Shown in pieces: positions 1 to 64,000 of a DNA stretch of 64,000 nt. A program made the position numbers and the translations under genes. Each line of letters opens with the position of its first letter. Position 1 is the first letter of the stretch. Location of the stretch: assembly GCF_011397635.1 (NCBI RefSeq), contig NC_064759.1:15644428-15708427 (forward strand). Direction: 5' to 3'. This stretch comes from Epinephelus fuscoguttatus (lineage: Eukaryota; Chordata; Actinopteri; Perciformes; Serranidae). Under the pieces are notes generated by a model. That model was not told the origin of the DNA. It searched no databases and worked only from the letters and a program-made list of their open reading frames with translations.

Positions 1-2140
1 TCTTTTTTTGGTTTACGTAATTTGCCTTGCTCTGATGCAGTGTGTATGTGTGAAGGAGCCAAGTGGTTACAAATATATTTAAATATTGATTTTTTTCTTA
101 ACGGTTAACAATAATTTTGTTTCTTTTTTTAGTTACATTTGGTGCTATTATTGTGATTTCTTTTTTTACATTTTGTTTTACACGTAAATAATAAACACTA
201 CAGCTGCCCCTAATGGTTTAACATTTCCAAGTTGTCACGATACTTTATACTATATTCACATGTACAACTACAAATTCAAGTATTTTGCTCTTACAACAGT
301 TTGGCCCTGGTTATTTTTTTGCTCCATTGTATAGTTAGTTTCTTGTGCGTAGCCTTGGAACACTAGATTTATGTTTTAAGTATATCAAGAGGGCAAAAGA
401 ACATGAAGACAAGTGCTGCATCCTGACAGTATTAGTCATCTGTAGGTAGTAAGTTAAACCATTTCATTTTAACATTTGATTGAGTGCTGTATAGAAAGTA
501 AGACATTTTGTGAAAAGTATTGTCATTTCTGTAGCTGAAACATTGGTACAGTGGAGAAGGGGTGATTGTGTTGTCAATCATTTGAATACAGCTACTACCT
601 CAAAAAACTTGGCTGTGTGGTCCTTCGTCTCTCTGTGTTTACATCATATGGTCTGATCTGGCAGCTCTAACCTTGTGCTGTAGTGTTTGTAGTTGTCCAG
701 TAGGTGGCAGTGTTGTATGAAAACCCCAGATCCTTTTAAAGGACGTCTGTTTAAACGTCAGTCCCAATTTGGAATAATAGAAGGATAATAATTAAGAGAA
801 AATCCTTTTATTGCAAAGAATGGATGGATCTGGCTTGTTATTAATTTATTAGGTAATCATGGTAGCATTTTAACATATAATACTTTTAAGGGAAATGCAA
901 TATTGTTTGTACTGACAGGCAATATAATAGTAATGAAGTCAGTTCCACAAGTAATGATTCAGTTAATTAGGGACATCCTGATCTATTCTACAGTTATTCC
1001 ACAAGAGGCTTCATTAGCTACAGGTGGTTTTAATGCAAAATGCAATAATACATTCTTAATGAGTGCTTTCACTTCCATTTGTTTCGCCATCACACTTGAA
1101 GCGAAGATACATGCTGCAAGGATACAGAATCGGAATCAGAAATACTTTAATTCCCGAGGGGAAATTATGATTTGTTACAGTTGTCCCTAAGTAAAGAATA
1201 GAGAATTAAAATAGTAAGAGTATGAAATAAAAGTGTGTAGATATAAAGCAACAAGTAAAATGAAGTAGAAATGAAATGTGCTTTAAAATAAAAATAAAAT
1301 GTGCATGATAATACAGTGTTTTAACATTAGTAATTAAGTCATGACATTTGAATATTAGAATAAAATATAGATCGTCACTGTGCTGAAGCTGTAAGTGTAA
1401 AAATTAAACTACAATATATACATCATTAGAATAAAACAATAAAATTAGAGTAAACCTAAGAAATATGTACAGCTATGCGCATTGATTCGACAGAAATTTT
1501 GCAGTTAAAATAAGAACCATTTACCACTCTTTTCCAATTCCACCCAAGGCTAAAGAAGTTCACTTTAAAGTAATGAATGAGCTTTACACATGTAATAACT
1601 TCTTAGGCCAAAGGTTTAATTTGGATTGGAATATTTGTACTTTCTGTAACTCAGATATTTAAACCCTGGAACATCTTTTCTCTGTAATGTAATTAAACTA
1701 GGACCTTTTGGGAGTTTTTTTCAATATTGGCTGACTTTAAATAATACAAATATTACGACCCTAAGTTATGAAAACATAAACTTTGGTGGAGGACAAGAAA
1801 GCAGAGTTCGGGATTCACAATTCTTTTTTTTTTCTTTTTTTCGCAAAATATTTTATTCACAAATGTCGTTTTCTGAAAACTATCCATGCATTTCCTGTGT
1901 TTTTAAGTTCGATAATTCTATTCATAAAATGTGAGAAATGCTGTAAAAGTGGAGAGGCCCTGCGGGTGTGTAAGTATATGCGCACCTAAATTCCTTAAAT
2001 GACAACTAGTATTTAGTTTTGATTTTGTTTTATCTTTCATCATTATTTATGTCGGCTTCAAATTTCATATTCCTTTTCTCGACTAAATAAAATTATTATT
2101 TGAAATAAACAAACCGAGTATTTAAACCGAGTAGGCGCAG
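1..2140. other. Upstream non-coding region
   Basis: This AT-rich stretch holds no convincing exon on either strand. In human the NCAPD2 promoter faces MRPL51; I looked for a minus-strand partner here and saw none, so it is absent or lies further upstream. The only recognisable item is the LINE fragment near 1528-1690, listed separately. The short open frames at 903-1190 and 1783-1989 are AT-rich chance frames without recognisable motifs. Confidence 0.6.
1528..1690 (+). repeat. Decayed LINE (L1/Tx1-like) ORF2 C-terminal fragment
   Basis: Read on the + strand, the sequence translates as a stretch containing KAKEVHFKVMNELYTCNNFL, then CTFCNSD, a stop, and TLEHLF. The C-x2-C followed by E-H-L-F is the typical end of L1/Tx1-type ORF2 proteins of fish. 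A stop codon interrupts the frame and no full element surrounds it, so this is an old 5'-truncated relic. The family call rests on recognition of the motif only. Confidence 0.55.
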
Positions 2141-2145
2141 GGTTA

Positions 2146-2208
2146 TGACGTCAGCGTCATCGCTTTGGCGCGATGTCCAAACAAATTTGAAAACCTGTGG
2201 CTTCAAAC
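2146..2208 (+). promoter_or_regulatory. ncapd2 promoter: CRE, E2F and CHR-type elements
   Basis: A palindromic cAMP/ATF element TGACGTCA lies at 2146-2153, an E2F-type TTTGGCGC at 2164-2171, and a CHR-type TTTGAA at 2186-2191. A second CHR core sits on the opposite strand at 2203-2208 (TTCAAA). E2F plus CHR is the known layout for DREAM/MuvB-controlled G2/M genes, which fits a condensin subunit expressed for mitosis. No TATA box is visible. The transcription start probably lies around 2215-2250. The sites are read from sequence; the regulation is inferred. Confidence 0.6.
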
Positions 2209-2224
2209 CGCCTGCTGACGGCAG

Positions 2225-2291
2225 GGAGAACAGGCTACATCTTTGTCTTCAGAGGTCGACACTGTGGCTAAAGGGACTGTAGCCGCTACAG
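2225..2291 (+). other. ncapd2 exon 1 (5' untranslated)
   Basis: The stretch after the promoter cluster ends in CTACAG followed by GTCAGT at 2292, a good 5' splice site. The next exon begins after a TGCAG acceptor at 2855 and carries the start codon three bases in. The 5' edge is estimated; the 3' edge is read directly. Confidence 0.55.
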
Positions 2292-2857
2292 GTCAGTATT
2301 GTGTCTCCAACTTAGTAAAACAGAGTTACTGGTGTAGTTTATGTCTTGTCATTTCCGTTGAATAACGTTTCAGTCAACAAGTGATGCTACGCAATGTCGC
2401 TAGCTAAGCTAACGTTAGCTTTCCTGCTAACTTCGCTAGCAGTAAATTACCTGTTTGTTAGCTAGCTTCATTCACAACAAACCTGTGCTGCTTGGATAAT
2501 AGAAAGGCTTGTTAATTTTTCTTTTATTAGAAAACATATATACTACCTCACCAATCTAATTCTGTGTCAGTTTTTTGTTTGGTGGGTATCAAATGACTAT
2601 TTCCTGAAGAATTCGCAACAGAAACATTTCTGCGACAAACTTAATCGTATTTTTCCAGACTTGTAAAACCAAACCGCTTCATTTTCTGTTTATTTGCAAA
2701 CGGTACATATGGTTTTAAGACCGAAAGAGAGTGAACTAAAGAGACAAAGTCAGTCGACTAGCATTAGTTTGCAGGTCAGTGTTGAGTCCTGTGTACTGTA
2801 GTTTCCCAGCCAGCGTTGCTGTACACTAATGTAATGTGATTGTTTATTGATGCAGGG

Positions 2858-5800
2858 ATGTCGTGGGACTTTTTTGTGCCCGTGTGCGTGGGTGACCTGG
2901 TGAAGACTGGGGGGATCAACCAGTATGTCGTTCAGGATGTGGTGCCCCCAAAACAGCTGCCACCTTATCTCAGTAGTAAGTAGTGAACTTGAATGAGTTC
3001 TGGAGTTGTTCTTTGTTCAGTATTTTCATTTCAGCTGGTGTGTTTGTGACCTAAATAATTTTTGTGTCCCCTTCTCACAGAATTCAAGTCAGCACTGAGG
3101 AGCCGAGGGCCTTTGTGTATATTGGAGCACTTTGACACAGGCTACAGCGTGCTACAGTAAGTATTGATCGCATATAGTTTGCTGTAGGTATTGTCTTTGA
3201 GAACTATGCATGTTCAAAACTAATTTCTTTACTTTTTTAGGCACTGCAACTCAGTGGAGCTGGGTGTGAAAGAGGATACCCTGGAGTTACTCATACAAGG
3301 TTAGACTTTTTTCTAATTTCTTTATCTTTAAATAGACATATGACCATAAACTGGACTTGCTTGCGTTTCTTGAAAACGTTTTGTCTTTCATCCAAGAAGC
3401 TTCTTCAGTTATAATGACTGTTACAGAGTTACAGGCTTAGTCCCTGTGTGGGTGTGAAACTTTGCAGAGTCGTAAGGGTCACATGTGAGCTTAGTTTCAG
3501 AGTCGTTAAGTTCACAATGTGAGTCAATGACCCACCTGGCTATCATTTGAGTCGTGAGGGTTGGGTGAGACCAGGGGTGAATAGGTGTGAAGTCATCTGG
3601 GAAGGGATCCCAAGACTGCATTGTAGATGGGTGATATGTGGTGTTGTAGGCCACCCCCTCTGTTTAACGATGGTCGTTCCAGTTTGAGCAAGTCCAGTTG
3701 CATACAGTATAGCACTTATGATTACCATGACCTGGATGACTGAGAATCTTCACCGAGATGTAGACATATGACCTTGATATGCTGGAGTTGATCACATATT
3801 ATCTTTATTTTTCCCTTTCAGTGGTTAGTGGCCTGGCTGCTTCCCTGCCAGCACTTCTCACCTCCACCACCGTCTCTGCTGCAGAGCGCAAAGAGAAACT
3901 TAATGCTGTTAAAATGAGTGTCTACCTGCTCTGCAAACTCACAGAGACCTTTGAGAGTGACTCCTATAGGCAGAGCATTGTCACGGCACCTGGGAAGGTA
4001 TGATCAATAGAGATATAGCAAAGAAATACATTGTTAATGGCTGTGTCAGTGACCAGTTCTGTGTTTAACCATTTTAAATGCCCGCATGATGATATCATGG
4101 CAAGTTTTATGATCCAGTCAGACCAAGAGATTATGGTCTCTAGCCTGCTGTTAGATGGGTAGTCTTGGTAGTGTGGTGGAGTTTTACTACACTGCTGTAA
4201 GGGCCCAACAACAGTCAACTTGTCACCTTCTTCAACCTCTGCCCCCCAAAGAGCAATGGGACAGGGCAGGAAGGAGATGTCAGATAATGTGTGAATGTAT
4301 GTTTGTCCTTGTGTGTGTTCTTGTATGAATGTTTATGTATCAGCTGGCAAGAGGCTATAGTCTCAATAAAGTTGGTTTGGCATATATGAACTACAGTCTT
4401 TGGTAACCTGAGGGCATGTATTGTAGGATGTTAGCTTTATTGTCTTGTGTAGGACATTTTGAGTCGAGTCAAATCTATGAATTTTAATTTATCAGGTTTT
4501 GTCTTTCTTGCACAGGGTGGTAAAAAAGGCAAAGGTGGTGGAGAAGGACTGCTGCAGTGGGACTCTGAGAGAGAGAGCGTGCTGCAGGCCCTCGTCCAGC
4601 TCTTCCAACTGGATATCCGTTCCCTCTGGAGCCTCTCCCTAGTGGAGGAAGAGTTCATCAGGTACTCTGCTGACTGGGGAGCTCTTGGCAAGAGTACAGT
4701 ATCAGACTTAGTTGTGTTAATTCAGTTAGTCTGTGTAATTTCCCGTTTTCTTCTCCCGATCTTTGAGAGTTTGTAGCCTTAATTGGGGCTTTTATGAAAA
4801 TTATCTGTCTTCCCATAAATAATGTCAAACCAAACCTAACAAGATCAGATCGTATTGGAACTGTGTTTATTGCTTCATGTAATGTTTCCGTTTTGAACAT
4901 TTCCTCACAGTCCTAGCTTTTTATGTTCAGCAGAAAGGATATGCAGTGATTGCTTCCTACAGAAGAGATTCATTTGTTTTCAGTTCTCATGTCAGTACCA
5001 GAAGTTCTTGATAGTTATGCTCATAACAAAAGATCACACATTTTAAAAAAATGTGGTTAGCTTTAAGAACCATCACAAACATATTGTCTGTACAGATCTG
5101 CAAATTTTTCTGATGAATACAGAACTTTGTGAATAGACTGTAGAATCTGATCTGAGCTTGCTTGAGTTGCTTTTCTCGCAGGTTTTCACCATACCACAAC
5201 ATGAACAAACTTAATTCTTTGCTCTGTCCCTTTCTTCTCTCAGCTGTGTGACCTGCTGCTGCTATAAACTGCTTGAGAACCCAACCATTGGCCATGTCAA
5301 GACCAAGCCCACCAGGGATTGTATAATACACCTACTGGGAGTGCTAATCAAGAAGTACAACCACCTCCTGGGTTAGTCTCACAGTTACACACTGAACCTG
5401 TGAGCAAGATTTATAACTGAGGGAGCATATCAACCCTGTCATTTTCAAGAACCTTGTGTATAAAGAGCAGAAAATAATATTACAAAACCTCCTGTTATTC
5501 AGCATACATTGTACATTTTGATTCTAGTGAAGACTCTAATTTTTTACAGGTGCAAGTGTGAAAGTGATCCAGCTGCTGCAACACTTCGAGCAGTTGTCAT
5601 CTGTGTTCGCCCAAGCAGTGTCTGTGTGGAGCACAGAATATGGAGTCAGGGCGATCATAGGAGAAGTTATAAGGTCAGTTTCCAACAAAAGGTCCTTTTT
5701 GTGAATCTGTTCATGGAAATCTGATTCTTCAGCTGCAAATGATGATGTATGGGAGGATTTTCATGCTTTTTAATTTTTCCCATTCTTTCAGGGAGATTGG

Positions 5801-8800
5801 TCAAAGGTCAAGTGAGGAGCTTGCCAGAGAGGCGTCGGGGGTCAAAGCTTTCGCCGCCTTCATTGCAGAACTCGGTGCCCTGGTGCCTGAATCAATGATC
5901 CCCAACATAAGTGTGCTCATCACACACTTGGAAGGAGAGGTACTATATGCATACTTTAATGTGTTCATCCTGCTAACATGGAATTCCTAATTTGCAGCTC
6001 CTGAATAGGAACACTAGTGTCCTTAAAGCAGTAGAAACTTGCTGCAGAATTCATCTGGCATCAGACAGGTTTATGTGATGATTTAAAGGAGTAACCCTTA
6101 ATATTAATGAGTCATCACTAAGGTGGCTGCTCATGCAAAGAATTAAGTCTCTACGAGAACATGCATACCGCTTGATTGAGTTGGGAGATTTCCTTTCTCC
6201 ACAAATCACTGCTTTTTGTGCCCTTCAAGACTTTCTGTGTGGGGTTTTATGTAGTTTTGTCAGTGTGGGACACACTGCGCTGTCAGGTACATACATTTCA
6301 GTGAAGGCCCTGTCGTCCCGGGTTGTGCGGTAATGTCAGCACATATTAAAAAAAGATTGGGTAAAAGAGAAGAAGGGTTTTTTAATTGTATCGTGTATGT
6401 TTTCTGTGACGGGAGTGCTACAATGTCTTGTGCTTCACAGGATAGCAGACTATGTGTAGCAATAATTTCACACCTGACAGGAACATTACAGCACCCAATT
6501 AAATCTTAGACAGTCTCCAAGTGCACATTTACTATGCAGTGACTCTCAAAAGGAGCAAAAAGCGATGGCCCACACTCATGTATACATTTATTTTTTTATT
6601 TGGTCAGTAAGTTGTCTTGCCCAGGTGCAAGTTTTGCTATTATAATGTTGCAATGCATCACTCCTCATTTAGGACTTGATCAGTGTTACCTATGTGTTGT
6701 TGAAATCTACACACAGAGCTCAATTTTTTTCTCTTATTCTGTTCACACTCTGCCCAATGATGAGACCAAGGCGAATACGAGCTTACTGAATGAGAGTTGG
6801 GTTCCTCTTTGCCTTGACTGGCAGGTAATCTTGGCAGTGCAGAGGAGCTTTCCTGCTCTGCTGTAAGGGCCTGCCTACAGTGACTTGGCTCAACCCAAAT
6901 TATTCGTCTAAAGTCACAGCAGAATAATTGCTGGGATGAAGCTGACAGTGTGTTTGTGTGTCTGTCTGTGTGGGTGTGGGTGGGTGTGTGTGTGTGTGTT
7001 GTGTAGGGGCAAGGAGCTCACCCAGCTCTCTTTGCTATTCGGTTAGCAATGAGTTGCTTCTTTGGTAATCTGAGGGCAGAGCTCAGAAAATTCTGAAGAT
7101 TTGGCATGAAATGCCACAATACATCAGTCCTTATTAATTGGTCCATTATTGTGTTTGACACTAAAATATTATTTTAATGACAGAAGAACAGCAGTCTGTT
7201 GTACCAACTTTGCATACATTTCCTCTTAGTTAAGGTGAAGTTAAGGGATGGAGTCCTCACTAAACAATAAGTTGAAACTAGATTGTTTCATTGTAAAGCT
7301 GTGTCAGTGTTTTGTTGCACCACAAAGACGTAAGGTTCAATTTAGATCTCTTCGTGGTACACCCCTCAAGTGTAAGATTTAAGTTTTACCTTATGATTAT
7401 GTTGAAACTGTTTCCGCTGGTGCAACCCGTACAATATAAGTAACGTGCAAACTCCAACCCAAATTAGAAATTCTTTTCAAACAATGCTGCATTTGAACTT
7501 ACACAAAGCTGGTGCAACCTATTGCAGGATCAGATTCAGACTTACTCCCTCTGTCCTACTGTTTTCCAGAGTCACACAATGCGTGTTGCTGTCTGTGAGG
7601 TGCTGGGAGAGATCCTCGTGCGGGTCCTGTGTGGCGACGGGCTTGACGAGTCTGGGAAAGCTGACCGTGACCGCTTCTTTGACACAATGCAGGAACATCT
7701 GCATGACACACATTCCCATGTCAGGGCACGTGTGTTGCAGGTCTACACACGCATTGTCAACAGCAAAGTATGTTTTTACTCACTTCTATTGTATCTGTAA
7801 ATGCATGTTATTAAACTCTCCCATGGTAATAACTACTATCTTTCTGTGTTTAGGCCCTGCCCCTGTGCAGGTACAGTGAGGTGATGGAGCTCGCTGTAGG
7901 GCGCCTGATGGACAAATCTATAAATGTGGTGAAGAGTGCCATTCAGCTGTTGGCAGCCTTCATCGCACACAACCCCTATAGCTGCAAGGTAACTGGAAGC
8001 AACATGATTTAGGCCCAGACTGGCAGACATTTTTTTTAAGAGTTAACAGTCTCACTGGACTATGTACTTGTTTCTTTCAGTTGAGCAGTGCAGATCTGAA
8101 GAAACCGCTGGAGAAAGAGACCGCTAAACTCAGAGAGATGAAAGAGAAGCTGGAGGGAAAAGCACCAGGTGAGATCGAATCCTGAGAAGTTTATTTTTCT
8201 TCCTGCTCAGTCACACTCTGCCCAATGATGAGACCAAGGCGAATACGAGCTTACTGAATGAGAGTTGGGTTCCTCTTTGCCTTGACTGGCAGGTAATCTT
8301 GGCAGTGCAGAGGAGCTTTCCTGCTCTGCTGTAAGGGCCTGCCTACAGTGATTTGGCTCAACCCAAATTATTTCTTTAAAGTTATAGTGAAGTAATCAGG
8401 GGATGAAGCTGACAATGTGTGAGACTGTGTGTGTGGTTGTATGTGCATTTGTGTGTTTGTGTAAGAGGCAAGGAGCACACCCAGCTTTCGTTGCTGTTCA
8501 GTCAGCAATGAGTTGCTTCTTTGGTAATCTGAGGGCAGAGTTTAGAGACTCATCTGAACTCAGCAGACCTGGTCTGTCCCCTTATTTAGTTGTCTGAAAT
8601 TGCACTCAAATTTCAGCCAGACCAAACAGTTAGTAAGATTTTCCTGTTTTATTAAGTGCCAGGAGTTCATTTATTTAAGTTGAAAGAGTTTTAGTCAGAA
8701 GTAATACTGTTCACAGGGTACCAAAGTTATGTAGTTTTAGATGTGAGCAAAAAAGATGCAAAAAAAAAAAAAGGTGGTTCAACAGTACCTTTATAAACGT

Positions 8801-11800
8801 GGTTGCCAGCCTGGCCCCCAGGCATCAGCTTTTGGTTGCCAAAACTGAAAACATGGTTGCCAATTTAGTCACCCTATATTTTGAGTAATTAAGGTACTAT
8901 GCAGTTACACTTGAGCTTGACAATGACACTGTGACATTAAAGAATGTTTAAAAGCTGTATTACAGTAACGGAATAACATTTTTTTGCCGTTTGCTGTGCA
9001 GCAGATGAAGTAAGGATGTAGAGGCTCCTCATTTTCAGAACACAGTGTTGAAAGGTTTTATGAGAATGGCCCAGTTGAAATCATTAGTCTTGCTAATCGC
9101 TGTGGTCATTGGCTCATCAGTGGTACAGTGGGTGTGCTGGCTTTGGCTTGTCAGTGGGTGTGCAGCCTCTACCTTATTATGCCATTTAGGTACCCGCTCA
9201 TGTTGCTTCCAGCTCCATTGTTTGTCGAGCCCTGTTGTTCCGAAGGATCTTCTGTGTTAAACTAGTAAACTTGTCACTTATCAAGGTGTATGTTGTGCTT
9301 GCAATGCAGTATAATTTACATCCATTTCGAAGATGCTGGGACACTTCTCCTCCTAAGAATTCACAAATCTCGGTTTTGTTTTTCATTTAGGTTTATTTGT
9401 TTCTTTGTAAGTTTAACCAATTTGCTCATTCGTTTTTGATGCAGACGGGGTTAGTCGAAGTTTTCTCCCCAGTCAAAGCCTCGGCCTCTAAAAGAGATGC
9501 CTGTGCACACACAAGTAAATGCATCAATGACATGCAGCATTTATGAATCCAGTTACGACCTTAATAGCAATATTCAATTATAACTAATGCAACAAATACA
9601 AAACAAGTATTTATTTTGGGGTGTACTTTTTGCTGTCCCTGTTCTTATAAGTGGAAAAAGTGGCAGCCCCTGGCAACCAGTATTGTCGAGCCCTGAAATG
9701 TCAGTATTGTAATTTCCAACATCACTTGAATGGAGCAGTAATTCTGTCATTTTAGCATTAGTGCTATGATTTTGTTTCTCCACAAATTGATGACTGGACC
9801 ACCGCTCCCGTTTTAATGCATTTTGCAGTTATTAGCTTTAAAAAAAAAACAACAAAACACAATCTCGTGTATCTAATGTCAGAGAATACTGTGGCACACC
9901 AGGAAAACAAACATGGTCAAATGGTGGTACAACATTGCCATATAGATATTTAACCCCGTCAACAATTACTATTGTCTTGGTAATTTATTTATTTTGAATT
10001 ATTTTTGTTCCTACTCATGCTCTTTGCAACTCAACTCTAACCAAAATCATCCTTATTGAATCTGAATTTTTTTTTCCCCCTTTCCCTCTGCCTCTCTGCA
10101 GTGGCGGTGATTAAAGCATCTGAGCTGTGGGCAGCTATGGAGCCTGAGCTGCTCGTCACTGTCAGGACCGAGCTGGAGCCCACAAGTGAAGCGGAGAGGG
10201 AGCAGGAGGAGGACGATGAAGGGGATGTGGAGGAAGACAAGGAGGCAGAAGACGACAGGACAACTGCGGTGAAGGTTGCTCAGTACCTGCGTGTCAACAA
10301 ATACAGGTAATGCTAATCACCAGTGCTGGCCCAATGTGTCACTACCTGAAGGATTTTTTTCCCTCTCACCCTGTCAATTAGCCAAAAATTTGATATGTGG
10401 AATTTATTTTGTTTTCCCCCTCTGCAGGAATGCCGTACGTCTTTGTATAAGAGCCCACAGCTGCTTCCCTGAATCTGAGATGTTTGCTTCTCTGTCCACT
10501 CTCAATGCTGAGACTTTAATGGACACGCTGGCTCTGATTTTCAAAGGTAAAGCCTGCGCTCGGCCCACCCAACATGTTTCTCTCCAGAGGCACTCATCAA
10601 AAGGGCTCTCCAGTGTGAATACTAATGGAAGCAAGATTGAATCTATTTAACATTCAGGCCTTTGCATTTCCTCTTGATTGGACCGCATTCATTTCACATT
10701 ATTTTTCAGTGTCAGTTCATTAAAACTGATGCGTATTTAATATGTGACTTTACAAGAGTGTGAGTAGAGGATATATTTAAGAGCATAGAACACTGCACTT
10801 CTCAATCAGCCATCTCATTTGACCTCCACCAATGCATACTGCTGCAGTTTTACAGTTATGCTAGATGCACATGTTGAGTTGCTACCAAGTGTAATCAATA
10901 CATGAAAGAAATCAACTTGTTTCAATTCAGTTGAAGAACAAGACATGAGATTTTAGCCCTTGTATTATGACTGTTTTTGGCATCACAGCTGCATCGATTT
11001 GTAAATTAATCCAGTAGTTGATCAAAAGAAAATTAAGTACCAAAAATTTCTTAATTTAATTTTATTATCATGTATTTATTTATTAATATATTTAATTTTT
11101 TTTAAATTCATTTTCTAAACAAAAATGTCAAACATTTGCTGGTCCCAGCTTCTTTAATGTGAGAAATCACTGCTTTTCTTTGTCATCATTTATGATTGTA
11201 AATGAGGATTCTTCAGGTTATAGACTGATAGTTGGACAAAAGAAGCAATTAGAAGATGTCACTTTTGGCTCTGGGAAATTGTGATGAGCATTTTTCACTT
11301 TTTTTTTTTTTATTTTATAGACAAAGGTTTACTGTGAAAGTGATCTGCAGATTAATCGATAATGAAAATTATCATTAGTTGTAGCCCTATTAGCATCTGC
11401 CAGTTCAGGCGGGGACAGCCATAAATTGCAGTCTAAATTGCAGTCTTAATTGTTTACATTACCCAGAGCCAATTTCATCATGGGGACAAAGGCTGCTGAA
11501 GACTAGACAACAACAAGTGTATTTCTTCTTTCTTGTTAATTGTATATGCACTATACCCTGTAATACTGGCAGATGGCAAAAAAAAGAGTATGTGAAGGTA
11601 ATCAGAATTGGACAGCTTATTCCTTAATATGCTGCTAATGTAAATGTAACAGTTCTGAAGCTGCCTTACATGCACTAAAAGCCTCATGGCAAAGAACAGA
11701 TTAAATTTAAGTACAGTACAGCAGCTGCAGGAAGTGTTGAGTAATTGAGCACCTATGGAAAAATTATTTATTGGTCTAATTCTTATGTGATTGCTTTAAA

Positions 11801-14800
11801 TATATACGTATATTCCAATTGACTTTACATCATAAGGCCCTTGATGTTTTTCCTCAGGTTCTGACGAGGACACCGCTGAGCTCAGTCAGAACTTGCCACC
11901 AACCCCACAGAAAGAGCCAGAAAAAGAGGGGGAGGATGCGGAGCTGAAGAAGCAGGAGATGTTGGTGCAGTACCTGAGAGACACGGAGACCTTCGCCTTA
12001 CAAGTGGAGAGAGCCATCTCTGTCATTAACACCATGCTCTACTGGAAAACCACTTCAGGTAGAAGGCAATATTCACCAGAGTGCAAACCATGTTCTAACT
12101 TGTACATTTTAGTGAAATACATGCATTCTCCCAGTAAAGAAACATTCTCACATTTGACAAATGTTTGGTTTTAGTGGTCCAGGAGGCTGTGCAGTTTTGT
12201 GTGACGGTTTGTGAGTTCAGCGTCGCCAACTCTGTGAGTGGGGTGAGGAAGATGTTGCCATTGGTTTGGTCAACTGACGCTGCCATTAAAGATGCTGTCG
12301 TTCAGGCCTACAGACGCCTGTATCTGAACCCTCAGGGAGACACCATCAAGTCCGTAAAACTGCCTCACACATGCATGACAATATGCCTTAACATTAACAA
12401 TTTAATATAAATTCTGCTGATAATACAGTTATTTTTATATAAGTTTGACTATTAGGATTCTGATTTAATCAGTTCCTGAAATCTCTTGAGGATTGCAGTA
12501 ATGCTAGGACACCTAATTTTCTGGATAACATTTATAACTATAGCGAAAAACATGCCTTGAAATGAAAAACACTAAAAACACTTGAAAAGATATTTTTCTG
12601 TGTTGTCGTCTTAAAGTAACAGTCTCATCTGTCTTTAGGATGAAAGCCCAAACTCTGGTTGACAGTCTGTCAGAGCTGATGGTGGATGCATCTCTGGGAA
12701 CAATCCAGTGTCTCGAGGAAATAGTGAGTAACTCCATTACTTTTATGTGGATCTTTTCTGTGTATGATGGTCATTTATAGTAACACACAACTATGCAGAA
12801 GTTTGAGTGATAGGTTTACCAGTACACTGTATGTTTTCTTGACTTGATGTCTACTGTATTATTGGATTTTATATATCTTGTGATAAATCATACAGGGAGT
12901 TGTAACCATCTAACCATGTTTCTGGTGGTTTCTGTAGGTGCAGGAGTTCTTTGGCAGTGGCAGCAATCTCCAGTCCACTGTAGTGCAGGTCTTGTGGGAG
13001 AGGTTTACCGGAAAACGGGAAACTTCTGGCTTACACAGACGAGCTGCAGTGTTACTGCTGGGCATGGCTGCACGGTAAGACATTAACCACTTTCAGTGTC
13101 AAACAAACTTCAATACCATGATGAGGAAAAGGGGTCATCGAAGGTGTTTTTTGTTGTTTTTTTTTAAATGAGTTTTTAAACTTCTCTTGCCTCTAACTGG
13201 TTCATAATTTTGGTTTGGAAAAAAAAGTCACTCTGCAATGACTCAGCTCCTGCTACACTTGGAGGTTGTCTATCATATTGACAAACAGTGCTGTAAAAAT
13301 GTCATAATTTATTATTACTTGTCATTTTAATTTTAATTTCATAAACCTGTCCTTGGGAAAAAAAGTGGAAAAGCATCATTCCTGTGTGCTCCAGTAGCAC
13401 CACTACACTACACCCCTGTTTACAAGGCCATGGAGAGGAAAGATGAATAGATACACTTGCCGTGCAGAAACTTTGGACATCAGCTGCCGTGACAATTTGC
13501 AATAGTGTGCAGCGATATAGCCTACCAGCAAGACAACAAGGTTATGCACTTGAGACCAGACGAGACAATAGCTAATAAATTGGCATATACCACTATCTGG
13601 ACAGGGGTGGGAATTACCCTGAGTTACAGTAGATCACCTTCAGTGTTCTAATCTGTCAGAATGACACACACCTTCAATCTCTAATGAATCAGTCTTTGAT
13701 GAAAAATATTTTGTTAAGGTGACCTCTGCTGACTCTTATGTGGAGCAGTGGTTCCCAACTGGTCCCAGCCATGGGGTCCAGATTGCTCCTTAGTCTTTAG
13801 TTCAAGGCCTGCACAGTTAAATACATTAGGTGTCGCACGTTTAGCCATATAGTCAAGCTAGTTTGCTGTTTCAGTCTAGTGGCTGTCCATTAGTCACTCA
13901 CTCTACAGCAGAAAATGGCACACAATGACCGAAAATTCACTGCACTTAAAAATAAAGGGTTTTTTTTGGTTGTTGTTGTTGTTGTTGTTGTTTTTGTTTT
14001 GTTTTTGTTGTTTTTTTTTTTTTCAAACTTGACACGTTTGCAAGTCGCTTGCGGCCCATTCAGAATGGACCTTGACTCACTTTTGGACCACGACCCACCA
14101 GTTGGGACCCACTCTTGTAGAGTGACCATCCAGGTCTGAAAAGTACAGCCATTGCAGAAGTGCCTTAAACCTGCATTATTTCTAATGGCCAGCAGGGGGC
14201 AACTCTACTGGTTGCAAAAGGAAATACTATTGTATACAAGACTATGAGAAAATGACCCCACTTCTCAATTAATTTATTACCTCAATAAGTTTATGGTCTC
14301 AATCTCCAGTTTTAAGTCTTCTCCAATACTACATGATGTTCATTCTGTAATTAAAGGTCCCATTTAGAGTAAAATAAACGATAAAGCAGATTACGGGGTG
14401 GCTACCTTGCGATTGACACGTTGTTACTGCAGCAGTGTTCTCACTTGCTCAGTCAGATTCATCCCTCACTCCTCCACAGCTTCATCCTTTTGTCCAAGTA
14501 TGGTCACTTCTGGCTCCAAAATTCCAGGATGGCAAAGACCAAAATGTCAGACTTGGGGCTTTAAAAAGGTCGTCCACAAAACCAATGGGTGACATCACAG
14601 TGGCTGCATCTACTTCTTTTTATACAGTCTATGACAGTGACATAAGGAGTAGTTTGACAAGTGGTCAAAGTGCATGCTTGCATTTGTTTAATGTTTTTTA
14701 AGACAACGTAAAATCCAGTCAGTTGTAGTGTACTCATCAAATGATTCAGCCTGTTATTTTGATCAGTATTATAATAACAGATCAATCCCAATGCAGCTCG

Positions 14801-17800
14801 TGTTTATTCATTTTCTCACTGTGTCCACGCTGTGATCTGATCTCATTTTGCACCCACTGTACAGTGCAGTAGAGTAGGTGGGAATGTCAGTCAAAACAAA
14901 TATGGCAAGTGTAGGATTAGACATGATGCTCTGCAGCCTGTATTTATTATCTAATTTTGTAGAAGGCAACAAAACAACTGTTGCTGTTACAGTTGCATGT
15001 GCTTTGCATCCTTATGACTTGTCTACTATGGATGAGGGAGAGGTGTGTTGACTGATGAGAGCAGTACTGAGCAGTCCTTTCTCATGACATGTTAATTGCT
15101 TTTACATATGGGTGATGGTAAAATCTGATTATATTTCCATTATAATTTGTGCTGCATGGGTATGAAAATACATTGCTTCTTAAAGAAACAGTGTTACTCT
15201 ATTGAGTCTGTTTACACAGCTGAACTGAGAGGGAATAAACTCAGTTTAAGTTTGCACTCACTTGCTCATATGTTCGGTCAAGTGGAAATTGCAGTAATCC
15301 CAATTATGTGGAAGTTGCAGTCACGTGGCATCTAAAAGTAAATGATTATGAATCAACATTTTTACTATTAATAGTTACTCTCAGACTAAGGAAATTTAAA
15401 TTCAGTGATAGTTTTATGACTCGGACTCGCTCTCACCTAATGTCAGTCAGCAGCAGTCCAGCACTACTGAGACTGGGACCGTTTGACCACATGTGCTACT
15501 GTCCAGTGTCTGGAATGGTTTCAAAACTTGACCCCCAAACAATCGAGTTCCAGATACGCTAAAGGAAACTGGAACAAACCTACAACAAGCTTGGCAAATC
15601 ACCAGTCGGCAAAAAAGTTCAACTTATGTCCTTGTTTCTCCCCAGCCCACTCAAAGCTTCAACTACTTGCGGATATTTCCACTGAAGCTACACTGTCTAA
15701 AAAAATGATATTTGGGACAGACCTAAAAGAGATTTTGATGATTCTGATTAACTATTACTAATTGCCAATGAAAGAAGTAACAGCTGAGATAATCTTGGCA
15801 AAATCGTACAGCTGCAACCCTTCTTTAATCCGGTTTACACCTGTATGAAAATGCTGTTCGTATCTGGATCGAAAAAGGCTCAAGTCGAATCTGTGTGCGC
15901 TCAGAATAAACCTCCGTGCTGTGTATTAAAGGGCTCTGTGTCATCCAAAGGCAGAAAAAAATCATTGTTATAGTTTTGTGGCTAGTTGAGTTGACTAAAC
16001 AGTTTTTCCAAAAAATTATGTAAAATCTGCGATATTACTCACTGCATAGAGGCGCTTCCTTTTACATTTTGGTCCTGCCTCAGCTACTTGACATTCAGCA
16101 AATCCTCTCATTAGTCAGAACACAGGCTCAGCCTCGGCTCCTCTTCATTGTAATCGAAGTCACGACTATATTACTAGGCTCCTTGCCAGTGCATTTCACT
16201 GAATATAGATATATTTTTTTTTAGTGTTCCCCCTCAATCTACCTCAAAGACTGCCACTGCTGTAGGGAAGAGCAAGCGAGTTAAGAGACTATCTGCAGTC
16301 CACCCACACTGCTGCCTCTCTTCATCCAGCCGGCAGCATTCATAACCTATTAAATCTTATGTGCTTCTCCTAACCCGTCCTCCTACACGCATTATCTGGG
16401 CAGCAGCCTAGCTCTGGCAAGGCCAGCACACAACAGTTGGGGTGATGTAGGTCAGAGATGTTATTACCTCACTTTGCATAATCACATGAACATTTGGGAA
16501 TATAAAATCTATACTTGATGCGTCTTTGTAAAAATGTCTGTTTTGTGTTTGTTTGAATCCAACAGGGCAGAGAGGGAGGTGGTACTCAGTAATCTGGATA
16601 CTCTTTGTTCCGTGGCTCTGGGGGAAAAAGTGACTGAAGACTTTCTTCTGGCAAGAGACACCGTTATCACCATCTGCAGCATCACAGACCACGTCAGGGT
16701 AAGAAGACATAAAGCATGATTGACTTTGGAGCAGCTCTTGATGACCAGAGGGCCACGTTGACTTGAGTCTGTTAATTGAGTCAGCAGGCCAAAAATCTTA
16801 TCTATAAGTAGAGTTTTAAGTGAAATGTTCAAGCCCTCTTTAATGGCTTTAAAGCATACTCAACACTCACAGTTTCATACTTGATGTATTACCCAAATTT
16901 ATTTGAATTGCTCATAAACAGAATTTCAAGCCAATGAAGTATTTCAGAAGTCCTCTACAAAAACTGACATATTTCAGTTTGGGGTTTCCAATAACCCCAG
17001 CTGTAAACATGATTACATACAATGGATTTTCATATGCCTTTTGTCTGTGCAGTGTTGCTAATCTCAAATCCCTGTGACATCTGTTTTGATTTTTGTCATT
17101 GGAGTGTTAGAGGTCTAAAGGCCCTGACACACCAAACTGTTGGCCAATGGTCAATGTCGGGCCATTGGTGAGCATCTGTTGCCCTAGATTTTGAGTGTAT
17201 CTCACACCACTGCCACTAGTCAGCCTTTGTCTACTATTCTTTGGCCAGTCCAGCATGTTGAGTTGGAGCCAGTGTAGTCCATCGGTGAGCGAAATCCCTC
17301 TGACTGGCGGTTCAGCTCAGTGTGCAAGAAGAGAAATGGAAATGAGAAAAGCAAGCAAACAAACAACTACTTTTTTTTTTTTTTTTTTTTTTCTCTGGCA
17401 CACTGTAAATATCCTTTGTTCCTACAACATCAGGTTGTGTTGATAATGTCCTTGACTAGTGTCTTGAATCCGTCCTGTCAGTCTTCTGGTTTCCCATTTG
17501 TAATGACAAATACAGACTATAGCCCATGTTATTATAGTTTGGCTATGAAGGGAGAACAAATAAGTTTCGGTTCAGCTTTATATAATGAAGTTTTAGTTCA
17601 AATGCATGTGTAATGCATATTCCTTTAATGGGGAGTTGGACCTCTCTCTGGTCAAACTGTAAGTAATGACTTTATGGCAAGAAAGGGAATATTTATTTAT
17701 TTATGCATATCCCATATCAAATATAAAACAATGAATATTTCCCTATTTTGTGTATTAGATATGCAAGTTTGTTCAGTTTGTGGCGAGGGGGAGGGTAACC

Positions 17801-43379: not shown

Positions 43380-48675
<5,296 letters not shown>

Positions 48676-53901: not shown

Positions 53902-56900
53902 ATGGGAGAAAGTGGTTCACAGAGGGGCTCCTGGTTTCTCCCCTCGTCCATCCACCCTCTGTTCCTCTCCCAGGTGTCCCCCTCTGCAGACCTGGCTGTT
54001 GCTGTCTTTCTTACCTTCACATGTGAGCACTTTCAGAGGACACTGTCATCAGTGTGTTCATCTCAGATTTGTTTTTGTGACTGTATGTACTGAATGCATT
54101 TTTGGTTTTGGGGGTTAACTGTGCCTTTAAAGTGACATTTTAATTGGAAAATTTGTGTTCAACTGACTATAAAAGACGTTTTGTGTCAACTCAGAGTTTA
54201 TGTGCGCTGTTTGACTGACATATTACAAATCAACACAAAATATAAATTTAAACACTCTCATTAAAGAAAAAAGTTCAGACCGTCTGAATACAAAACACCT
54301 GCATCCAGCTGAGCAGCAGAGAAACATTCTTCACCTCTGAATCTTAAACAAAACCCTCGCCGTTTGGTTTGCACAGCAAATTGATGAAACTGCAGATGGA
54401 CAGGTGCTCCGCTCTTTCAGTCACATTGGTTAATTTGTGTTGGGCTCTGTTTGAGTTAATTGGCTTGTCTGTGGAGCAGCGTGAGTGTTTGGGTGGCTGC
54501 AGAGCAGTTACTGTTGTATTGATGAATTGTCGTGGATTGATCCACCCTGACTCCCTCTGCTCTACCTCACGTTGTGCAATTATGCTCAACATATCTAATT
54601 TAAAGAGCAAACTTAAAGTGACTTCTTATATTACTCTTGCTCCAGGTGTTGTATCCGTCCTGGGGAATGGCACAGTGTTGTTAGTCTACTCCAGGAAGAG
54701 AAAGAAGCTCAGACCACCAGAGCTCATGACCGTCAACCTGGCCTTCTGCGATTTTGGCTTCAGCCTCTTTGGGGCGCCGTTTTCCATCATTTCCAGGTAT
54801 AGGAGATTTTGTTTTCAACCAATAAGTAGACAGCCATGAATCCAGGGTGATGACACTGTGAGTGTAACACAGACAACATCTAAACCAGCAGACACTGAGA
54901 CAGAAGGTGATAATCCATTAAGCAGGGAGACTAAAGCCCGTCTCTGCCTCTTTCAGCCTGTGCCACACCTGGGTGTTTGGGGAGACAGGGTGCCTTTGGT
55001 ATGGCGTTCAGGGCTTTGTGTTTGGCATCGGCTCTCTGCTCACCACCTGTCTCATCTCTCTGGACCGGTGCCTGAAGATCTGCTGCTTAAGATACGGCAA
55101 GTCTGAGATCTTTCTTATAATCCACTTATTTATGACTGCACTCTAAATCCATCTGACTCTTCCTGAATAAATGTGAGCATTTTTTGCCACACAGGTTTTT
55201 ACACAAACCTCACTTACACAACATACTGATTCCAGCCTGTAGAGGACCCTCCTCTTCTTGTGTAAATGTACTGATGTAAAGAGTTTTAAAGGCCGTTCAT
55301 TGATTGATGATTGCTTATGTAACACTAAAGGTCAGTTAAACCTGCTGATGTTTTAAGAAAAGGGTTACGTGAAATGTCAAGACTTCCCTTGAGGTTGAGG
55401 CTCATTATGCCTTGCACATGAGCACGCTGCTGAAATAGTCACACTAAGTTCATTAAGGGCCCTGTGTGTATGGTTTAGAGGGATATATTGGCAGAAATGG
55501 AACTTAATGTAATAAATATGTTTTGCTTAGTGTGTCACCTGAAAATGAGAATCATTGTGTTTTTGTTTGTTAGAATGAGCAAGTTATATCTATATAGGGA
55601 GCAAGCCTTGTCCACAGAGTCCGCCACGTTGCACTGCCATGTTTCTACAGTAGACTAGAATGGACAAACCAAACACTGGCTCTAGATAGGGCCAGTCCTT
55701 GTCGCATTTTCGCCTTAGCCACTGTAGTTAGTAGCCCCTCCGCATCGAGAGCGTCAGAAAACACATTTTTTTTAAAACTTGAAACTATGTTATTCAGTGT
55801 TTTCACCAGTTTAAATCACTGGGTCTCTTTGTTTTGGAGAGGAAGAGACCTCTGTGAATAATTTGGCTCCCAGTAAATGTCTGAACGTTGGCATGGTAGA
55901 GGCCATAGTACTCTGCCGGAAAACGGCTGATTGCCCCTTCTGGGTTGGTAGAGAGTAACTGTCTCAAGCGAAGGGGTCTTGTTCAAGAGTAAATAAGTGG
56001 TAGAGTGGTAGAATAGAGCGTGAGATGGATCACTGGTTTGGTGCAGCGTCTGCAGTGATGCGGCTGCTGCACTGGACTGTTGTGGTGAAGAGGGAACTGA
56101 GCCAGAAGGCAAAGCTTTCGATTTACTGGTCCATCTACGTCCCAACCCTCACCTATGGTCATGAGCTCTGGGTAGTGACCGAAAGATTGAGATCGCGGAT
56201 ACAAACGGCTGAAATGAGTTTCCACCATGGGGTTGCTGGGCTCAGCCTTACAGATATGTTGAGGAGCTCGAACATCTGGAGGGAGCTTGGAGTAGAGCTG
56301 CTGCTCCTTCGCGTTGAAAGGGGTCAGTTAAGGTGGTCAGGATGAATCAGGATGAATCAGGATGCTTCCTGGGCGCCTCCTGTTAGAGGTGTCCCACTGG
56401 TAGGAGGCCCCAAAGTAGACCCAGAACATGCTGGAGGGATTACATATCTCTTCTGGTTGGGGAGCACCTTAGGGTCCCCCAGGAGGAGCTGGAAAGTGTT
56501 GCTGCCCCCATGACCCAACCTCAGATAAAGGGATATAAATGGATGGATGGACATATTAGCATGTGCCGGGCTAGCTACCTAACTCTAATGAGCCATACAA
56601 CGTTGAAGATTCAGTGAATATTGAGTGCTTTGACCAGTTTTAATCACCTGGTCTGTTTGTTCTGGAGAGGAAAGACCTCTGCGGATAATCTGGCCCCACG
56701 TAAAAACCTCCTGAAGAAAGAACACTGAAGGAATTCTAACCGGGAGAAGTTTCAGCTGATTGCAATCTGCAATCTTCACAGCTAGATGCTACTAAACCCC
56801 TTTAAATTTTACACACTGCTCCTTTAAAGGTCATCCATTGATTGATGATTGCTTTTATAAGACTAAAGGTCACTTAAACCTGCTGATGCTTCAAGAAAAT

Positions 56901-59900
56901 GGTAAAGTGAAATGTCAAGACTTCCCATGATGTTAAGTGCCCATTATGCCTACACATGGACACACTACTCATATAAGTTCATTAAGTGGTTTCATGCTTC
57001 TTGGCTCTCTAGGTCAATGGATCGAGAGGCGCCATGTGTCTCTGTCCATAGCGTTGGTGTGGGTTTACACACTGTTCTGGGCTCTGCTGCCTGTGTTTGG
57101 CTTTGGAAGCTATGGACCAGAACCTTATGGGACCAGCTGCACCATCAACTGGTAGTCTCTCTGATTTCGATTACAGTGCTGCTCTATTCCCTTCTGTTCA
57201 CATGCACTAAAGTCTGCAGACACCTGTGTATTCTCTGATTTGTATTCTTCGTGCACTTGCAGACAACCATGTCATCGATAACCAGTCTGCCTGTGTCACT
57301 GTTTCAAGGTGGAGAATGAGGTCGTCTCTAAATGACCGAATCTATATTTTCCTCATCCTGGTGTTATGCTTCGGGTTTCCTACACTCACTATCATCACTT
57401 CATATGTGGCCATCCTGCTGACGGTGAGGACAACTGCTGCTTCCTGACCCTAAATGGAGGGTCTGGGAGCTGTGTGTGTATTCTGCAATTATTTTTGTTT
57501 TAATGTGTCAGACACTCCTTTAAAGCCACTTTAAATGAATGAGAAAACCGCACCTCTGGCACCCCCTAGTGATACAATTGAGAAAGACACAAAAGCAGAC
57601 AGTAATGCACTGTAAGCACTACTTCTCAGGGGTACAGGGGAGTACCAAATGAGCAACGTGAGAAAATGACCCACTGACCCAGATGTCACAATGTGTGTCA
57701 GTTGTTTTGTGGTTATTTTATGGATTGCTAATTTCTTTACAAGTATGCAGGGATACTTGGGTGAATGGGCTGACAGGAACTAAAACAAATGCCATCATGA
57801 GAAGAAAAATGGAAGTAAGGAAAGCAAACAAATGACTGGACTTGATATATTAGGTAACGTTTTTCTTTAGCTGTTGAACTTTCCTGCTGGCATGGCGAAT
57901 TATTTCCACTCACACAGGCGCAGAACATACGTGTTAGTTTGCCAGTGGCTGTAGTCTTTGTGATATGTTCAATGCAACTTTTAGCCAAGACACAGCACAC
58001 AGGCAATGTGAGGCAATGCAACAGTCGGTCTTTGTTGCCACTAGTTCTTAGATGCCGGTTTGGTGTGTCTTGGCCTTAAGTGACTAATAGGGACAACAGT
58101 ATTTGAAATTTGTCCAGCTTCCTAGTACTAAGAGCTGCTCCTAGTGACAAAATTCAAAATAAATTCTTAGATTGTGATATTTTCTTATAATTTCCCCTTA
58201 AAGTTAAGACTAGGTCCTTGTAAAGATACAGGTTATTCACAAAGCATCTCAGACCTCAAAAGAGCTCCTAAGGTGATAAACTGTTAAGAGCAGGGAGATG
58301 GACTTTTCAGAGGTTTAAGAGTTTCTTAATCAGAGGAGAAAATGGTGGAAACCAAAAGTGGTCGGAGAAATATTCGCCAAACACTGGATGACAGTGAGTA
58401 AATGAAATGCTGCAGGTAAGATCATGCTGGAATAATATGTGTGGTTGATGTCATTAGGGATAAGTACACATTTCCCACCTAACGCTATAACGCCAGAAAT
58501 AAAATGATCACATTACTAGGATATTTGTAAAACTGGAAAAATGCCACACTACAGCAGTGATGACTTGAGTCCGTCTCAACCTTCCATCATCAGAGTGATC
58601 ACACTAACAATGACAACACTTTTACAGTCAGCAGTTTATTTCATTTCCACTGGGTGTCCACACCTTGCAGGCTCACAAAAGGGCCGTGTCTCTGACAACC
58701 AATCACATCTGTTAAAAGCAAGCGTCTCACCTAGCAACAGGGTCAACCACACCTCCTCACTAAGGTCAAAGTTTCTGTCCCTTCCTTTCTCAGAGTTGCT
58801 CTGAAAACGTTCCAAAATCACTCCTAAGCTAAGACTCCTGACTAAAAGTTTTTAGGTTAAGTTAGGAGGTCTCTGAGAGGACTCTCAGGATGTTTGTTAA
58901 TACAGCCCCTGGCCTATTTGTTGTTGTCTTCCTGCAACAACTCAACTGGAACACTTCAGAGAAGACTTCTCCTTAAGTGAGACTTGGTTCGACCAGATCA
59001 AGTGAAAAGCAAAGAGAAATATTTCAAATCTCTGTAGGACCCTTTCCATAATGTTGTCATACACTTATCATAGCAGTCTGAGCACTTTTAGTGGACGCTT
59101 ATAGATGGTGAGCTATTGACATGAAAGATCACATTGCAGCCCATTTTGCTGCTGCCAGCTACAGGGCTCTCGCTCAATACTGGACCAACTTCAAAAGATT
59201 TTGTTCCTGTTAGTCTCTTAGACACAGTAACATTCAAAAATAGAGTTTCAGTTGATTGAAATATACCAGCCTGAGTGCCCCTTAAATTGTTGCTTCTGTC
59301 TTCAGGTCTACAGATCTAATCGCACTCTGGCATCTATACCGTCCTCCTCTGTCAGCCACACCAGCAAAGACCTGAGACTTGCAAAGGTAAACCTTAGTGA
59401 GGATCACTTTCAGAATCACTGATACACCTCCTGCAGGAGGAATAAAGTGGTGTGCTTATTTCAGATGGCTGCTGTGGTGTGCATCAGCTTCCTCATGGCC
59501 TGGACACCCTATGCCACTGTGTCTCTGATGTCTGCACTCATTCCCAGAGATGACCAAGAAGCATCTTTACAGACTGCGGTGGAGGAGACCACCAACATCC
59601 CATCATTACTCAACTGGACAGCTACAGAATATTACAGACAAATCTCCTACAGCACTGATAACAAGTGGAGCGATGTGAGCAACATGAATTCGGCCTCCAT
59701 CATCGGTTTGAGTGACGCCTTGCTCAGGTCCACCCTGGACAGTGAAGCTGAGCTAATGACCACGAGCCCTCAGCTACTCTCCTGTTTCCCACCTGTAGTC
59801 ACCTTGATCCCTGCTATGTTTGCCAAGTCCCACTGCATGATTAACCCTTTAATCTACCAGATCATGAACAGGGAGTTCAGGGATGACGTCTGTGTGATGG

Positions 59901-60109
59901 TGTTAGGCCAGGAGAAGGCAGAGAGGAGGCGAATGCAGGGGAGGAAGGGGAGCTCATATGAACGTAAGGACCAAGAGCAAACTGCCACTTTAATTTGGAA
60001 AAATAGTCCAAGTGTTGAGTCTCTTTTTCTTTCTCCTCTCTTGAAGGGACCATCAGCCTCTCCTACTGCCACAGTTGGAAGAGGAAAAGTTGCAAGCCCA
60101 TGTCCTTGA
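53902..60109 (+). CDS. Non-visual opsin (neuropsin-group type), 7 coding exons
   Basis: This is a retinal-binding seven-helix receptor. Exons: 53902-54022, 54646-54796, 54957-55096, 57013-57151, 57309-57423, 59306-59386, 59465-60109; together 1392 bases, 463 residues plus stop, all phases agreeing. Visible: TM1 VLGNGTVLLVY, TM2 NLAFCD, Cys103-Cys180 disulfide pair, Tyr106 at the position of rhodopsin Glu113, Glu174 at the position of Glu181, AWTPY in TM6, retinal lysine Lys370 in IPAMFAKS, and NPLIY in TM7. Tyr113/Glu181 is typical of bistable non-visual opsins. The D/ERY motif is DRC. Extracellular loop 3 is about 76 residues (277-352) with a glycosylation site at Asn299. The first ATG in the exon (53873) is out of frame, so 53902 is the first in-frame start. 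I place it with fish Opn6-Opn9 but cannot choose among them. Confidence 0.88.
55457..56823. mobile_element. TTAA-MITE copy 3, interrupted by a LINE, in opsin intron
   Basis: It is bounded by TTAA at 55453-55456 and 56824-56827. The ends GGGCCCTGTGTGTATGGTTT and (right) TTTACACACTGCTCCT resemble the other copies. The internal stretch CACAGAGTCCGCCACGTTGC matches the truncated copy at 21308-21549. A LINE has inserted near 55890-56548. A MITE-internal segment (GGTCTCTTTGTTTTGGAGAG) recurs after the LINE as GGTCTGTTTGTTCTGGAGAG, so part of the MITE is duplicated around it. Confidence 0.65.
55890..56548 (+). repeat. 5'-truncated LINE, 3' end
   Basis: The + strand frame 56025-56345 encodes KRELSQKAKLSIYWSIYVPT and LTYGHELWVV, a typical C-terminal region of fish non-LTR retrotransposons. 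The 3' end runs into GATAAAGGGATATAAATGGATGGATGG, the tail style of such elements. Upstream wording (CTCTGCCGGAAAACGGCTGA) belongs to the same ORF but is out of frame, so it is dead. Confidence 0.75.
57740..58078. repeat. Short DNA transposon, CCTGACACACCAA family, in opsin intron
   Basis: It closes with GGTTTGGTGTGTCTTGGCCTTA, the reverse complement of the start of the copy at 17116. The left boundary is approximate. Confidence 0.45.
58225..58911. repeat. Short DNA transposon in opsin intron
   Basis: The right end, reversed, reads CCAGGGGCTGTATTAACAAA followed by CATCCTGAGAGTCCTCTCAG and resembles the left stretch TTATTCACAAAGCATCTCAG. These imperfect inverted ends fit a decayed fish element of the Harbinger or hAT kind. 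The class is a guess. Confidence 0.4.
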
Positions 60110-62399: not shown

Positions 62400-62929
62400 C
62401 AGTAAACAAATAGTTAACGGATCAGCGCGCCTCTGGTCGGGTATTTACGGTAGCCGTGCTCTTCCAATCCCGCAGCACCGTCTCCTGCCTGCGGTCACGT
62501 CTTGTTGCCAGAACTTCAGTGACGCGGTGACACAGGATTTCAGTGTTATTCATCCCCCCTCTGCGTCTTTTTTCCTTCGTTTAATTGCGTTTATTTTAGC
62601 AGCACATCTCACGAGGGGCTGGTCCATCGCTGCAGCAGTTTGTACCCCTGCTTCCAGCCAGCCCCCCTGTTGGAGCCGTTACTGGATGTTTTGTCACGGA
62701 CGGTGAGAGAGCTCTGATCCATCAGCCGACGTTAAGACCTCTGAGCTTTAAGGATCAGATTCTTATTTAGAAACGGTTATATAATCTGGTAAACACTGGC
62801 GTTTTGTGCGCGGGTCTTTCTCGTTCGTTTCCCAGCTACTTATTTATTCATTTTATTCTGTTGTAGACTAGATAATTCCCGTCCGTGTTCATGCCAGATC
62901 TGCAGCGCTTTAGTTTTCCATACCATAGC
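62400..62929 (+). promoter_or_regulatory. iffo1: iffo1 promoter and 5' leader region
   Basis: GC content and CpG rise from about 62420 compared with the AT-rich sequence before it, as in a CpG-type promoter. No TATA box is evident. The transcription start cannot be fixed; the open frame at 62377-62706 lacks recognisable motifs and is probably leader or promoter sequence. Confidence 0.4.
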
Positions 62930-63882: not shown

Positions 63883-64000
63883 GTAAACCCCTTTTGCTGC
63901 ACTTGTATCAGTCAGGCCTACAGGGGCATTTCTACCAAACATTAGGTTGTTGTGTTGATTTCTTAAGTGTGTGTAATGCTCTACACTGGAGCAGTGAGCA

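Follow-up and report, generated by a model that had tools for sequence, protein, structure and literature searches.

The U85 RNA (SCARNA10; Rfam family RF01296) is a composite scaRNA that joins a C/D and an H/ACA domain. In human, SCARNA10/U85 resides in NCAPD2 and is directed to U46 and C45 of the U5 snRNA (PMC3766210); the initial annotation of the present locus had likewise named NCAPD2 as the mammalian host of one such RNA. In chicken, U85/U89 is placed in NCAPD2 intron 3 (PMC2653536), and the records given by these two sources hold one U85-type RNA for each species. Human U85 is reported to be targeted to Cajal bodies via two CAB motifs (PMC4041459). Among small RNAs differentially expressed in stickleback, PMC4041765 names SNOU85, the part concerned giving no copy number; more generally, no report on U85 copy number in fish was found among the literature matches listed, an absence that is not proof.

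Two other systems are close. The U87 and U88 scaRNAs are, like the RNAs described here, related composite scaRNAs lying in two introns of a single gene, ATG16L1 (introns 9 and 11 in chicken; PMC2653536), but host and main target (U5 U40/U41) are different. According to the same source, intragenic duplication is the main route by which new snoRNA paralogues arise in chicken. The second system comprises the UG-rich C/D scaRNAs (U90/SCARNA7, mgU2-47/SCARNA28, SCARNA2 and SCARNA9), which have no H/ACA domain and whose UG stretch forms an apical wobble stem-loop. Six UG repeats are described as sufficient for Cajal-body targeting of a C/D RNA, four as partly effective and two as ineffective (PMC4041459). 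TDP-43 is reported to bind the UG-rich scaRNAs 2, 7, 9 and 28, and its knock-down is reported to leave U85 unshifted (PMC6412121).

Here we analyse a 64-kb stretch of Epinephelus fuscoguttatus DNA (the window), in which three U85-type RNAs, carrying UG-rich tracts of unequal strength, lie within one ncapd2 gene.

Results

Three full-length U85 matches in one host gene

The whole window was compared to all Rfam families with cmscan. Three full-length matches to RF01296 (snoU85; gathering score 41) were obtained on the plus strand, at 4081-4415 (copy 1, 54.0 bits), 6752-7078 (copy 2, 54.1 bits) and 8220-8537 (copy 3, 60.9 bits), with E-values ranging from 5e-11 to 5e-13. All are above the curated gathering threshold, and no family other than RF01296 reached its gathering level in the 64 kb. 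The initial annotation had proposed a triplicated U85/SCARNA10-type RNA and named a covariance search as the check; this search scores three copies and not only one, supporting both the type of RNA and the copy number. A laxer search of bases 1-16000 added only matches below gathering level (8 of 11 listed; e.g. L31 leader and SNORD99), which were taken as chance.

Once the terminal stems are added to the model matches, the RNAs measure 325-340 nt and their outer limits are 4078 and 8540, exactly as annotated (Table 1). A C box (AUGAUGA) and a D box (CUGA) are present in each of the three, and every RNA is closed by a perfect terminal stem (6, 8 and 9 bp), also in agreement with the annotation. 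The 19-mer that covers guide, D box and stem occurs three times in the window with no mismatch, compared to a chance expectation of 0.01 even when three mismatches are allowed. We consider it highly probable that one ncapd2 pre-mRNA encodes three intronic composite C/D-H/ACA scaRNAs of the U85 (SCARNA10) family, whose expression and processing are predicted. After splicing, debranching of each intron lariat would be followed by trimming as far as the terminal stem. The trimmed RNA would then be bound by C/D and H/ACA proteins, and the U85 RNP would move to Cajal bodies.

Table 1. Location of the RNAs and of their elements in the window.
Feature	Position	Strand	Basis
Copy 1, U85-type scaRNA (340 nt, 6-bp terminal stem)	4078-4417	+	RF01296 and stem
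Copy 2, U85-type scaRNA (334 nt, 8-bp terminal stem)	6748-7081	+	RF01296 and stem
Copy 3, U85-type scaRNA (325 nt, 8-bp terminal stem plus ninth pair 8215/8541)	8216-8540	+	RF01296 and stem
Copy 1, 5' H/ACA hairpin with U46 pocket	4147-4216	+	pocket pairing; fold z -4.76; pair counts
Copy 2, 5' H/ACA hairpin with U46 pocket	6813-6882	+	pocket pairing; fold z -1.61; pair counts
Copy 3, 5' H/ACA hairpin with U46 pocket (same sequence as copy 2)	8281-8350	+	pocket pairing; fold z -1.61; pair counts
Copy 1, 3' H/ACA hairpin (AUA instead of ACA at foot)	4210-4290	+	fold z -1.98
Copy 2, 3' H/ACA hairpin (ACA at end)	6880-6947	+	fold z -2.04
Copy 3, 3' H/ACA hairpin (ACA at end)	8348-8415	+	fold z -2.38
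Copy 1, UG-rich tract (weak)	4288-4338	+	25/49 steps; next best in window 24
Copy 2, UG-rich tract	6928-7023	+	top-ranked 50-nt stretch in the 64 kb, 38/49 steps
Copy 3, UG-rich tract	8404-8475	+	second best, 30/49 steps
Copy 1, C45 antisense (12 pairs, 2 G-U), then D box CUGA 4408-4411	4395-4411	+	U5 pairing
Copy 2, C45 antisense (10 pairs, 1 G-U), then D box 7070-7073	7059-7073	+	U5 pairing
Copy 3, C45 antisense (10 pairs, 1 G-U), then D box 8529-8532	8518-8532	+	U5 pairing

That the host is ncapd2, a condensin subunit gene, is supported by matches of the joined exon translations to Cnd1_N in Pfam (E 1.4e-36) and to condensin complex subunit 1 (Ycs4) in the PDB (E 4.9e-37). With bounds read from the sequence, copies 1, 2 and 3 lie in introns 3998-4515, 5940-7569 and 8169-10101; four exons separate copies 1 and 2, and three separate copies 2 and 3. 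The placement in three different introns stands. The numbers first given to them (5, 9 and 12) would fit with one putative non-coding exon ahead of the ATG exon; by our own count from the ATG exon (near 2855), the host introns are 4, 8 and 11. The flank, substitution and UG-threshold counts given below were made with intron bounds that differ from these by a few bases.

Copies 1, 2 and 3 begin about 80, 808 and 47 nt after the 5' splice site of their introns, and about 98, 488 and 1561 nt separate them from the 3' splice site. One idea is that a strong terminal stem aids snoRNAs located far from the branch point. The shortest stem (6 bp) belongs to copy 1, near its 3' splice site, and copies 2 and 3, far away from theirs, have stems of 8 and 9 bp; this agrees with the idea, an agreement that with three copies is only suggestive.

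Downstream of ncapd2, Pfam matches were found for a GAPDH-like exon (46117-46446; glyceraldehyde-3-phosphate dehydrogenase, E 3.9e-7, 30.7 bits, just under the cut-off of 31.7), two rhodopsin-type receptor-like ORFs (54348-54836 and 59423-60106) and an intermediate filament-like ORF (62876-63883). Three of these four matches are under the curated cut-off. This is reminiscent of the human 12p13 order NCAPD2-GAPDH-IFFO1.

Both U5 guide elements are retained in every copy

Pairing was evaluated against the U5 snRNA sequence. In all three copies the fifth base before the D box pairs with U5 C45, the antisense covering U5 positions 42-53 in copy 1 and 42-51 in copies 2 and 3. Through its pocket, the 5' hairpin of every copy pairs with U5 39-45 (7 pairs, 2 G-U) and 48-53 (6 pairs), with U46 and A47 left free. 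The antisense next to the D box would guide 2'-O-methylation of C45 and the pocket pseudouridylation of U46; PMC7960923 and PMC3766210 give these two positions as the targets of U85.

Because the same C45 and U46 elements occur in each RNA, each of the three is predicted to guide both modifications. The initial annotation had suggested that the H/ACA and C/D roles might be shared out among the copies. Copies splitting the work in this way, or acquiring new targets, could account for the differences seen in their 5' C/D region and 3' hairpin, but both known guides, for the same two U5 nucleotides, are kept in all three, and we regard such a split as very improbable. Judged on its letters, each copy looks dual-function with identical targets. 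Redundancy or dosage would be the simpler reading of the copy number, and higher dosage from three copies is possible; for the extra copies, a role in dose or delivery is more likely than one in reaching new targets.

Signs of structure keeping in the U46 hairpin

When the 5' hairpin is folded, an internal loop sits at the pocket. Copy 1 differs from copies 2 and 3 at 22 of the 70 positions of this hairpin; 3 of the 17 named pairs are changed on both sides and still paired, and 91.2% of cells are paired. When partners were slid by 1-3 columns, double-changed pairs disappeared in six slides out of six. Random placement of the 22 differences gave at least three double changes with P 0.033-0.038, the corresponding values for kept pairs being 0.095-0.106. 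A shuffle control matched the observed covariation in 81 of 500 cases, because the alignment has only two distinct rows. Between copies 2 and 3, kept pairs over the whole RNA exceed random placement (P 0.017 and 0.003) under a null that ignores the wholly unchanged 5' block, double changes over the same span show no excess (P 0.48 and 0.11), and the 3' hairpin taken alone gives nothing above chance (P 0.15-0.59). The changes in the U46 hairpin keep its structure, but the covariation is thin and its statistics are weak; the structural evidence overall is supportive, not strong.

The 3' hairpin of copy 1 has no base-by-base alignment to that of copies 2 and 3, which itself fits RF01296 poorly. 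Boxes were assigned by eye. Against the H box consensus ANANNA, copy 1 reads ACAACA and copies 2 and 3 read ACAGUG, with the last base off; the ACA box is AUA in copy 1 and ACA in the other two. For the CAB box (ugAG), the 5' loop has GGAG in all copies, and the 3' loop has AGAG in copy 1 and AAAG in copies 2 and 3.

Some of these observations could indicate that only one or two copies function, the others being decaying duplicates: the AUA at the ACA place in copy 1, which has also lost most of its similarity to the other copies (55-57% identity), the off-consensus H box seen by eye in copies 2 and 3, and the lack of significant pair keeping in the 3' hairpin tests. Decay is nevertheless unlikely in our view, given that both guides, the C/D boxes and a perfect stem are found in every copy with full-model scores above gathering, and that copy 1, at about 56% identity, should not have retained all of these elements if it were decaying.

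Substitutions between copies 2 and 3 are confined to the middle of the RNA

Identity between copies 2 and 3 extends to 298 of 332 columns (90%), whereas copy 1 matches copy 2 at 184 of 323 and copy 3 at 175 of 316 columns (55-57%). This suggests at least two duplications: an old one within the host gene would have separated copy 1 from the ancestor of 2 and 3, and a younger one would have separated 2 from 3. The aligned stretch of copies 2 and 3 contains 34 substitutions and has 10 gap columns. All 32 substitutions inside 6749-7081 lie in the central 161 nt, the 135 nt before and the 37 nt after being free of them, and even placement would put all 32 in the middle with a chance of about 8e-11. 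The unchanged ends mean that guides, boxes and stem were kept. Selection on these elements explains the middle-only substitutions, with gene conversion of the 5' block as a rival for part of the pattern. Gene conversion keeping copies 2 and 3 alike, the copy number being neutral, would fit 135 nt of uninterrupted identity next to a middle with 32 of 161 positions changed. Against this, the identical block is where guide-bearing and stem parts lie, and the 37 nt of the 3' end, which hold the other guide, are unchanged as well; we hold this explanation to be possible yet clearly the less probable one.

Homology between copies 2 and 3 ends near the RNA edges (6743-7097 versus 8211-8558). Past 10 nt, flank identity is 16/50 and 14/50, near chance, and remaining intron-intron matches outside the RNAs are at most 23 nt long with E 0.008 or worse. 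Segmental duplication of whole introns is therefore not supported. Seen by eye, copy 2 is flanked by a short direct repeat, ATTCTG (6736-6741 and 7090-7096), with AAAA before the 3' one; these repeats are too short to claim a trace of retroposition (RNA-mediated insertion).

The UG-rich tract

Separate 50-nt stretches of the 64-kb window were ranked by their UG/GU steps, with CA/AC steps counted for the opposite strand. The three highest are those at 6955 (38/49), 8416 (30) and 4289 (25); all lie within the RNAs and on their strand, and the runners-up have 24, 24 and 23 steps. With the threshold set to 0.5, nothing but the three RNAs passes; lowering it to 0.46 yields 6 UG and 2 CA tracts, and lowering it to 0.42 yields 10 and 3. 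Perfect UG runs reach 9, 16 and 10 nt in copies 1, 2 and 3. Copies 2 and 3 have a striking tract, and that of copy 1 hardly rises above background. Folded alone, the tract was no better than shuffles (z +0.79 to +0.93).

The tract could serve as a second Cajal-body address or be an ordinary microsatellite, harmless because its loop tolerates it. By analogy with U90 and mgU2-47, U85 in this fish lineage might have gained such an address, with the UG tract binding WDR79/TDP-43 beside the CAB boxes or partly replacing them; copies 2 and 3, whose 3' CAB box reads AAAG, carry the strongest tracts. We view this gain as rather unlikely. It is at odds with the lack of stable folding of the tract on its own. 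The fish tract differs from that of the UG-rich C/D scaRNAs in lying 3' of an H/ACA domain.

Discussion

The RNAs described here share with U85/SCARNA10 the composite C/D-H/ACA architecture, matched over the full length of the model, as well as the NCAPD2 host and the guides for U5 C45 and U46. They differ from it in number, three copies versus one, and in the UG-rich tract, which the RF01296 consensus does not have. Since intragenic duplication of snoRNAs is known and U87/U88 provide a precedent, three copies in one host gene appear as a stronger case of a known process.

This locus represents a clean natural case in which a dual-function guide RNA was amplified in one host gene with both guides intact, and the triplication allows asking whether dose limits the modification of U5 in fish. 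With a functional UG tract, these would be scaRNAs joining both known vertebrate Cajal-body signals, and the independence of U85 from TDP-43 reported for human cells would become testable in another lineage. Should the second address prove true, U5 modification in this fish would come under TDP-43 control, combined with a triple dosage.
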